A DNA stretch of 64,000 nucleotides from Marinibacterium anthonyi (GTDB lineage: Bacteria > Pseudomonadota > Alphaproteobacteria > Rhodobacterales > Rhodobacteraceae). The notes under the pieces were generated by a model. It made no database searches. It was not told the DNA's origin and saw nothing but the letters and a program-made list of their open reading frames with translations. Of this stretch, positions 50,999 through 52,511 are shown piece after piece (the stretch's first letter is position 1; each line of letters begins with the position of its first letter). The stretch covers positions 5,287,501 to 5,351,500 of the forward strand of contig CP031585.1 of NCBI GenBank assembly GCA_003217735.2. The letters run 5' to 3'. The position numbers and the translations under genes are program-made.

Positions 50999-51448
50999 TC
51001 AGAACTTGATGACGACCGAAAAGACGATGATCAGCAACAGCACCGTCGGCAGTTCGTTCATCATCCGGTACTGCCGGCCAGTCAGCGTATTCGTCCCGGC
51101 GACGAATTCCTTGCGCCTTTTCGACAGCCAGTGATGGAACCAGGTCATCGCGATCACCGCGGCACCCTTGGTCCAGGGCCAGACCATCGTCCAGTCCACG
51201 ATGCCCGGCGTAAAGACCAGCATCAGCCCGAAGACCCAGGTCGCGATGCTGGCCGGGTTCATGATCAGCTTCAGAAGCTTGAATTCCATCATCTCGAAGA
51301 CGGGCGAAAGACCATCGACCTTCTCGGCCTGTTCGACGTGATGCACGAAAAGCCGCGGCAGATAGAACAGCCCGGCCATCCAGGTAACCACCGACACGAT
51401 GTGAAGCGCCTTGGTCCAGGGATAGAGCGTGGCAAGTAGATCCGTCAT
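50999..51448 (-). CDS. hemJ: Protoporphyrinogen oxidase HemJ
   Basis: 149 residues, with four predicted membrane helices. HemJ oxidises protoporphyrinogen IX in the inner membrane. YPWTKALHIVSVVTWMAGLFYLPRLFVHHVE contains the His and Arg residues conserved in HemJ, and RRKEFVAGTNTLTGRQYRMMNELPTVLL the C-terminal part. It flanks the predicted origin on the left. Confidence 0.94.
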   Translation of the reverse strand: MTDLLATLYPWTKALHIVSVVTWMAGLFYLPRLFVHHVEQAEKVDGLSPVFEMMEFKLLKLIMNPASIATWVFGLMLVFTPGIVDWTMVWPWTKGAAVIAMTWFHHWLSKRRKEFVAGTNTLTGRQYRMMNELPTVLLLIIVFSVVIKF

Positions 51449-51528
51449 CTTATCCTCATCGAGGCTGCCCGCCCCTCCCTACATAAAATTAATAAAGAAG
51501 AAAGGATGATGTGATTGTAGGGAGGTCG

Positions 51529-51543
51529 TTAACTGGGGATTAC
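51529..51543. promoter_or_regulatory. CtrA-like site in oriC, TTAACTGGGGATTAC
   Basis: Matches TTAA-N7-TTAA except for the final base. It lies exactly 100 bases left of the perfect site at 51629. Confidence 0.5.
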
Positions 51544-51628
51544 TGCGTTCTCCCGGATTTTGTCCCGGCTGGGGAAATCGCCAAGCGTTTTCAGCGACAT
51601 GCAGTGAACTCACGGAAATTCATACGTG

Positions 51629-51643
51629 TTAACAATGGGTTAA
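51629..51643. promoter_or_regulatory. Perfect CtrA-type site in oriC, TTAACAATGGGTTAA
   Basis: Matches the CtrA consensus TTAA-N7-TTAA at all eight bases. In Caulobacter CtrA sites of this type inside the origin block initiation in non-replicating cells. Confidence 0.65.
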
Positions 51644-51702
51644 TTCCGGCCTTCAGCGGGTAAATCTGTGGACGAATCGCGCATGCTTGCCCAGCGGTCC
51701 GG

Positions 51703-51711
51703 TTATCCACG
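51703..51711 (+). promoter_or_regulatory. DnaA box, one mismatch
   Basis: TTATCCACG, one base from the consensus TTATCCACA, within the predicted oriC. Confidence 0.6.
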
Positions 51712-51846
51712 GCGCAGACTTATCCTTGTCCCCGCAGGAAAATCCGCGAACATGTTCACGAAACTTTCATGAAATCCCCAGACTTGCGGAAACCGTCAAA
51801 CTTTATACAAATCGCCCGCAGGCGGTTCGACCATCTCTCCACCGAG

Positions 51847-51855
51847 TTATCCACA
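51847..51855 (+). promoter_or_regulatory. Perfect DnaA box
   Basis: TTATCCACA, the strong DnaA-binding consensus, about 57 bases before the maf start at the right end of the predicted oriC. Confidence 0.75.
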
Positions 51856-51911
51856 AGCGCCCCCCGTCTTCGGACCGCGACGGGGCGTGGCGGCACAGGG
51901 GACCTTGCACC

Positions 51912-52511
51912 ATGACCCGCCCGCTGATCCTTGCTTCTGGTTCTGCCATCCGCGCGACATTGCTGACCAACGCCGCGATCCCGTTCACGGTCCAGGTGCC
52001 CCGCATCGACGAGGACGCGGTCAAGGCGTCGATGATCGCCGAAGACGCGCCGGCGCGTGACATCGCCGACACCCTGGCCGAGATGAAGGCGCGCAAGGTC
52101 GCCGAAAAGGCCCCCGGCGCGCGGGTGCTGGCCTGTGACCAGGTTCTTAGCCACAAGGGCCGCCTGTTGTCCAAGCCGGGAACGCCCGAAGACGCCGTTC
52201 TTCAGATCACCGCGTTGTCCGGCGACCGCCACACGTTGTTTTCGGCGGCCGTGCTATACGAAGACGCGCGGCCCGTCTGGCGCCACGTGGGCCGGGTGCA
52301 ATTGACCATGGCCAACCTGTCGGAACCTTACATACATGGCTATGTCCGCCGGAACTGGGACAGCATCCGCCACGCCGTGGGTGCCTACAAGCTGGAAGAA
52401 GAAGGCGTGCGGCTGTTCACCCGCATTGACGGAGACTATTTTAACGTCTTGGGTATGCCCCTGTTGGAATTGCTGGGGTTCCTGGCGGACCGGGGGGATA
52501 TCGAAAGATGA
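51912..52511 (+). CDS. maf: Maf family nucleotide pyrophosphatase
   Basis: 199 residues. Hydrolyses non-canonical nucleotides; some homologues affect septum formation. LILASGSAIRATLLTNAAIPF contains the S-x-S-x2-R start, and ACDQVLSHKG the catalytic Asp. The open frame runs further upstream into the predicted origin, but ATG 51912 gives the family N-terminus. First of the maf-aroE-coaE-dnaQ operon (4-base overlap with aroE). Confidence 0.94.
   Translation: MTRPLILASGSAIRATLLTNAAIPFTVQVPRIDEDAVKASMIAEDAPARDIADTLAEMKARKVAEKAPGARVLACDQVLSHKGRLLSKPGTPEDAVLQITALSGDRHTLFSAAVLYEDARPVWRHVGRVQLTMANLSEPYIHGYVRRNWDSIRHAVGAYKLEEEGVRLFTRIDGDYFNVLGMPLLELLGFLADRGDIER

Follow-up and report, generated by a model that had tools for sequence, protein, structure and literature searches.

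A putative chromosomal replication origin between hemJ and maf in a Rhodobacteraceae genome, and its IHF-type site in the form of a CtrA box

The genes hemE and COG1806 have been published as the boundaries of the chromosomal origin in Caulobacter and Rickettsia (PMC1914354). In the origin of Caulobacter, the only IHF site, TAACGCTCTGTT, coincides in part with a CtrA site, from which CtrA is displaced by IHF (PMC4285127); some marine Caulobacter origins probably gained the use of CtrA independently, according to a review (PMC4468827). On the question of CtrA at origins, an in silico study lists some cases in Wolbachia and its relatives (PMC1914354), and for Brucella a lack of CtrA binding to the origin was reported (PMC2877005). 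For Dinoroseobacter shibae, it was reported that ctrA is dispensable and that the CtrA relay affects chromosome number, seemingly inducing replication without division (PMC4046655), and a later proposal holds that CtrA~P inhibits initiation (PMC6473078); in the accessible parts of these two reports no origin site for CtrA is shown. Rhodobacter sphaeroides is said to be without complex CtrA-dependent control (PMC6315104), and CtrA-dependent expression changes near oriC are described for Phaeobacter in a report whose accessible text does not contain the term CtrA box (PMC12363192).

Against this background, we examined a hemJ-maf gap for which a sequence-only reading had claimed an oriC carrying two CtrA-type boxes. 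Its premise that CtrA in this group controls motility and gene transfer agents is too narrow, since the D. shibae relay was reported to affect replication (PMC4046655). The literature searched, partial in coverage and including few subscription papers, yielded no description of a CtrA box at an origin between hemJ and maf.

Location of the candidate origin

The intergenic gap between hemJ and maf measures 463 bp and lies within the window, i.e., the whole stretch of 64,000 nucleotides that was analyzed (C1:5287501-5351500), with its center at C1 5,339,180. The genome comprises 6.8 Mb in 13 contigs, with C1 spanning 5,560,560 bp. Judged by Maf, the named species closest to it is Marinibacterium profundimaris (83% identity), tied with a Rhodobacteraceae MAG. 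G+C amounts to 0.536 for the gap, as counted over 51449-51914, compared to 0.643 for the window. Beyond these two genes, one flank continues with rho, trmE, gidA, gidB, and parA, and the opposite flank with aroE, coaE, dnaQ, and secB. All motifs named by the sequence-only reading were found at the positions it gave, namely TTATCCACA at 51847-51855, TTATCCACG at 51703-51711, TTAA-N7-TTAA at 51629-51643, and a one-mismatch copy of the latter at 51529-51543. The features of the gap are collected in Table 1.

Table 1. Positions in the window, strands, and supporting evidence of features in and around the hemJ-maf gap
Feature	Position	Strand	Evidence
Putative chromosomal oriC (hemJ-maf gap)	51449..51911		Nearby skew and KOPS switch, conserved synteny, conserved DnaA boxes, sole DnaA cluster in 1.19 Mb scanned of the contig
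hemJ (UPF0093; protoporphyrinogen oxidase HemJ), left neighbor	50999..51448	-	PF03653 E 3.7e-55; TIGR00701 126.9 bits, under the 138.05 cut-off
maf (nucleotide pyrophosphatase), right neighbor	51912..52511	+	PF02545; TIGR00172 121 bits, above the 117.15 cut-off
Stretch rich in AT and in purines, then conserved GGATGATG-n-TTGTAGG block; likely DNA unwinding element (putative function)	51480..51523		Family alignment
DnaA-like box TAATCCCCA; family form GTGGATtA (reverse); overlaps the proposed second CtrA copy	51534..51542	-	<=1 mismatch in 57/173 rows, <=2 in 141/173
Second family DnaA box position (TTnTCCnCA), degraded in genus (TTGTCCCGG in window)	51560..51568	+	Alignment consensus
TTAACAATGGGTTAA: IHF-type site (TAACAATGGGTTA vs WATCAANNNNTTR, one mismatch) and exact TTAA-N7-TTAA CtrA box in genus	51629..51643		Family alignment
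DnaA-like box TCGTCCACA; family form tGtGGATAA	51667..51675	-	<=1 mismatch in 108/153 ungapped rows; window copy has 2 mismatches
DnaA box TTATCCACG	51703..51711	+	TTATCCAC in 3/3 genus genomes; <=1 mismatch in 21/150 rows, <=2 in 66/150
Conserved TTATCCTTGTCC block, weak DnaA-like motif	51720..51731	+	DnaA box with <=2 mismatches in just 22/172 rows
Probable maf promoter TTGCGG-N16-TACAAA (role suggested by eye)	51784..51811	+	Conserved in relatives
Perfect DnaA box	51847..51855	+	<=1 mismatch in 125/166 rows; exact in 3/3 genus genomes

GC skew and KOPS-type octamers were determined over C1 in 43 sampled stretches of 20 kb each and over the contiguous 5.2075-5.56 Mb (352.5 kb), with GGGNAGGG as the octamer that we take, in name and in motif, to be of the KOPS type. 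The ratio of GGGNAGGG to CCCTNCCC was 84:23 over 22 stretches of the right replichore and 13:101 over 21 stretches of the left, these totals being sums of the sampled rows with replichore limits set post hoc, after the rows had been viewed. The orientation switches at the gap region and again on the far side at approximately 2.5-2.8 Mb, the point opposite the gap being 2.56 Mb. Within the contiguous 352.5 kb, the cumulative KOPS minimum falls at 5,351,586, 12 kb to the right of the gap, and the GC-skew minimum at 5,373,413, 34 kb to the right. The GC skew shows much noise and reaches its minimum 34 kb off, so that by itself it does not single out the gap. The skew check that the sequence-only reading had called for, run here on sampled C1, thus finds the replichore switch expected of an oriC at 12-34 kb from the gap, which puts the origin near the gap region without picking the gap itself.

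The gap does contain a cluster of DnaA boxes. Clusters scoring at least 3 occurred only at this gap when the window and 57 further stretches of C1 were scanned (1.19 of 5.56 Mb), and the contiguous 352.5 kb around it held no other such cluster. The gap's own DnaA boxes are few, i.e., one exact and two with one mismatch. It also contains an AT-rich block, starting at 51480, where unwinding may take place. The displacement of the two minima to the right would fit an explanation in which the gap serves only as a promoter region for divergent, DnaA-regulated genes, with oriC at another place no more than some tens of kb away. This is highly improbable in view of the lack of a rival cluster in the 352.5 kb, the positional conservation of the DnaA boxes described below, and the rho-hemJ...maf neighborhood that the gap shares with outgroup loci carrying the published origin neighbors hemE and COG1806. 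With the switch nearby, the sole DnaA cluster in 1.19 Mb, and conserved box places, the gap is very probably the chromosomal oriC, as the sequence-only reading had supposed.

Exact TTATCCACA boxes also occur on C1 as pairs at C1:1172566/1172708 and C1:3540159/3540235, both outside the scanned 1.19 Mb; these were rejected as origins since they are far from the skew and KOPS switch. The boxes of the first pair are 142 bp apart, past the 3' end of a metallo-beta-lactamase-fold-like gene, and those of the second, far from the origin, are 76 bp apart and upstream of an exonuclease III-like gene, both genes being named by eye.

Conservation of the neighboring genes and the DnaA boxes

That hemE is absent from the window is correct, the genome's single URO-D match being at C1:665875-666894, and no PF03618 (COG1806) match was found in the genome; neither of the Caulobacter-type neighbors hemE and COG1806 adjoins the gap. 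The presence of hemJ instead of hemE, which had been singled out, is a real difference from Caulobacter and is nothing special in this family: of 80 named loci retrieved with Maf, 78 have hemJ and maf together, as do 107 of 111 further family loci retrieved with HemJ (two of the 107 at a distance of about 1.2 kb); both sets are biased by their retrieval through one of these two proteins. A HemJ match at 1e-30 was missing in 75 of 395 family genomes, so hemJ is the usual neighbor, not a universal one. At the two exceptions among the named loci, L123 and L148 (one from Marimonas lutisalis, one from a MAG), rho faces maf across the gap with no HemJ match in the locus, and at two others, L069 and L077, the HemJ-Maf distance is about 1.2 kb compared to the usual 0.4 kb or so.

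As outgroups we used 17 loci from other families of the class, four of which (L266, L270, L274, and L281) were scanned with Pfam. L270 and L274 have the order rho-hemJ-hemH-hemE-[gap]-COG1806-maf; L281 has the same order without COG1806, with hemH and hemE between hemJ and maf; and L266 has hemH plus one open reading frame without a family between them. From these gene orders we infer that the outgroup arrangement is the older one, in which case hemJ would adjoin the gap in our genome because hemH, hemE, and COG1806 are no longer there. When three outgroup gaps were scanned for motifs, DnaA-like boxes were detected in two of the three, and none contained a CtrA or IHF site, even with one mismatch allowed.

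An alignment of the gap across Rhodobacteraceae, another check that the sequence-only reading had called for, was built from 196 loci, among them that of the window's genome, duplicates, and two from outgroups; of these, 186 gave HemJ-Maf gaps of 250-700 bp and 174 were distinct: 3 from the window's own genus, 74 named, and 97 others, nearly one per genus. The loci beyond the first search lean to closer relatives, as they are the best HemJ matches plus 60 picked among the matches listed. In this alignment, the DnaA box positions and conserved blocks keep their places across relatives, while the one-mismatch CtrA copy at 51529 does not. In a set of 102 gaps, which includes the window's own and two of about 1.2 kb, 182 sites with at most one mismatch to TTATCCACA were counted versus 11.6 in first-order Markov shuffles. 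As for GANTC (CcrM) sites, 188 were counted versus 177 in shuffles over the 102 gaps, one of them in the window's gap.

The individual positions differ in how far they are kept. A one-mismatch box at 51450, located at the hemJ start, is not conserved outside the genus. The position at 51560 has 4-5 mismatches in the three genus genomes; in genomes outside the genus, it has at most one mismatch in 28 of 94 rows and at most two in 56 of 94. The conserved block at 51720 reads TTATCCTTnTCC in the footprint map. Near maf, the window's box at 51847 lies 56 bp before the ATG, and a box of the form TTnTCCACATG (TTNTCCACATG) was found at the maf start in 33 of 97 genomes of other genera, with the start placed by alignment to the window's Maf. 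A DnaA box overlapping the maf start in these relatives could tie maf expression to DnaA.

On the hemJ side, the putative unwinding block contains 20 columns (51502-51521) that are invariant among the three genus genomes, and outside the genus GATGATG is present in 68 of 97 genomes and GTAGG in 44 of 97. Inspection by eye revealed no convincing DnaA-trio repeats in this block, and the single-strand fold of 51480-51580 was ordinary (z -0.37).

The IHF-type site and the supposed CtrA boxes

For the site at 51629, we fixed beforehand the pattern WATCAANNNNTTR, which we take to be the IHF consensus, and wrote the core CARNNNNTTR after viewing the column counts. A published search used the IHF pattern WATCAN5WTR (PMC1914354). 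In the local interval, 18 of 174 rows carry exact WATCAANNNNTTR on the top strand (shuffles, 0.8), and when one mismatch is tolerated the number rises to 89 (shuffles, 11.9). At the aligned place itself, matches with at most one mismatch were found in 85 of 152 rows, and in 82 of 171 rows outside the genus when gapped rows were counted as misses. The core was found in 113 of 146 ungapped rows (113 of 171 in all, 25 having alignment gaps at the site), where local composition predicts 0.24, an expectation that is not blind since the core was chosen from the columns; in the nearly one-per-genus set it was found in 53 of 97 rows, with 19 of 97 gapped there. An IHF motif, with one mismatch in the window's copy, thus appears at a conserved place, and the strongest reading of 51629 is that of a putative IHF-type site. 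The genome encodes ihfA and ihfB, as well as ctrA and sciP; two one-mismatch CtrA-like sites lie near ctrA-sciP.

The same letters form an exact TTAA-N7-TTAA box in all three genus genomes compared. In sequence form, then, a CtrA box overlaps an IHF site here as in Caulobacter, and two explanations have to be weighed. One is control of the Caulobacter type, in which phosphorylated CtrA would bind the 51629 box (and the 51529 copy), exclude IHF and DnaA, and repress initiation. The other treats the match as a by-product: it would come from an IHF-type site lying in AT-rich DNA, and CtrA would never bind it. Within the genus, 13 of the 15 columns of the box are invariant compared to 232 of 496 for the region, which speaks for CtrA and against a by-product, as the box is kept amid poorly conserved surroundings; however, the three genomes are related and count as roughly a single event, a number of gap stretches elsewhere are equally or more invariant, and most of the conserved letters are IHF letters too, T51629 and A51643 being the two box letters that fall outside the IHF motif. 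Outside the genus, the exact box is as frequent at the aligned place as column composition predicts (2 of 146 rows; 2.14 expected from independent columns), there are 2 exact boxes in 97 genomes of other genera, and the pattern is not enriched genome-wide (26 places versus 29 for a reversed control pattern), all of which favors the by-product. Against it stands a mild excess of CtrA matches over local shuffles in the 174 rows (exact, 6 versus 1.7; at most one mismatch, 38 versus 21). We attribute the mild excess to the IHF letters and the three genus rows because the other rows, when compared with independent columns, show none. In the set of 102 gaps, TTAA-N7-TTAA was counted 12 times in exact form versus 1.8 in shuffles, and 55 times with at most one mismatch versus 36.

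Evidence from other bacteria also cuts both ways. Control of the Caulobacter type gains from the genes ctrA and sciP being encoded, from the Caulobacter IHF site TAACGCTCTGTT that overlaps a CtrA site and is like TAACAATGGGTT in form (PMC4285127), from the probable independent gain of CtrA use in some marine Caulobacter origins (PMC4468827), and from D. shibae, where the relay affects chromosome number (PMC4046655) and a block of initiation by CtrA~P was proposed (PMC6473078). It loses from the opposite sign of the D. shibae relay, which seems to induce replication without division in an organism where ctrA is dispensable (PMC4046655), and from the Brucella report (PMC2877005). Altogether, we consider the by-product explanation probable and repression by CtrA at this origin doubtful.

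The second CtrA box was a misreading. A conserved DnaA box in reverse orientation, GGGGATTA, is part of the copy at 51529, TTAACTGGGGATTAC; of 173 aligned rows, 1, that of the window itself, has a CtrA site there when one mismatch is allowed, and both sister genomes lack such a site at this place. We therefore rejected it, and that the copy is not kept within the genus also argues against control of the Caulobacter type. The spacing between the exact box and this copy is indeed exactly 100 bp. The suggestion that it reflects helical phase or cooperative binding finds no support and was likewise rejected, as the second site is not kept in the sisters and a CtrA-like pair exactly 100 bp apart was found in 1 of 97 genomes of other genera. 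One sister (L080) has a different one-mismatch CtrA match, located in the AT-rich block at a distance of 140 bp from its exact box. Instead of the several CtrA boxes across the origin that Caulobacter has, the gap has one exact box.

A working model and comparison with known origins

The explanation that best accounts for these data, and in which we place considerable confidence, is an oriC of the usual Rhodobacteraceae form, with IHF acting between groups of DnaA boxes and the CtrA box at 51629 being the genus's version of the IHF-type site. DnaA would bind the reverse boxes at 51534 and 51667 and the forward boxes at 51703 and 51847, IHF would introduce a bend at 51629-51643, which separates the two box groups, and the AT-rich stretch beside hemJ (approximately 51480-51523) would then unwind. 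Of this, the computations show the location, the synteny, and the places that the motifs keep; the binding events, the direction in which gene order changed, and the effect on replication are proposals. CtrA, if it acts at all, would most likely compete with IHF at the single 51629 site, as in Caulobacter; action through two boxes 100 bp apart is not part of this proposal. Since the 51629 box is kept in all three genus genomes, a Caulobacter-like dual IHF/CtrA switch is possible. It seems unlikely that a few base changes turned the origin's conserved IHF-type site into such a switch in this Marinibacterium-like genus, convergently with the Caulobacter origin, Cori.

If this dual switch were real, the conserved IHF site would be a stepping stone for repeated entry of CtrA into alphaproteobacterial origins. 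That a CtrA-like box can arise from an IHF-type site calls for caution with motif-based CtrA claims, and it also offers a concrete idea of how CtrA control could evolve. The 174-gap footprint provides a testable motif map of the roseobacter origin, consisting of the unwinding block, DnaA boxes, the IHF-type site, and a DnaA box located at the maf start or close to it.

Compared to other Rhodobacteraceae hemJ-maf gaps, the window's gap has the same neighbors, conserved blocks, and DnaA box positions. It differs in that one family DnaA box (51560) is degraded and in its length: 143 of the 174 distinct gaps measure 395-420 bp, whereas this one exceeds them by about 50 bp, most of the surplus lying between the DnaA box nearest maf and the maf start. 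The oriC of E. coli differs from the gap in its neighbors and arrangement. What the two have in common are DnaA boxes and a single IHF site, which in E. coli promotes DnaA binding (PMC4285127). Cori of Caulobacter crescentus differs in having hemE and COG1806 as neighbors and five CtrA sites (PMC1914354), compared to one exact CtrA box form in the gap, and in its weak G- and W-type DnaA boxes (PMC4468827), where the gap has TTATCCAC-type boxes. Both have an AT-rich region and DnaA boxes (PMC1914354), and in both one IHF site, TAACAATGGGTT in the window, also has the form of a CtrA box (PMC4285127).
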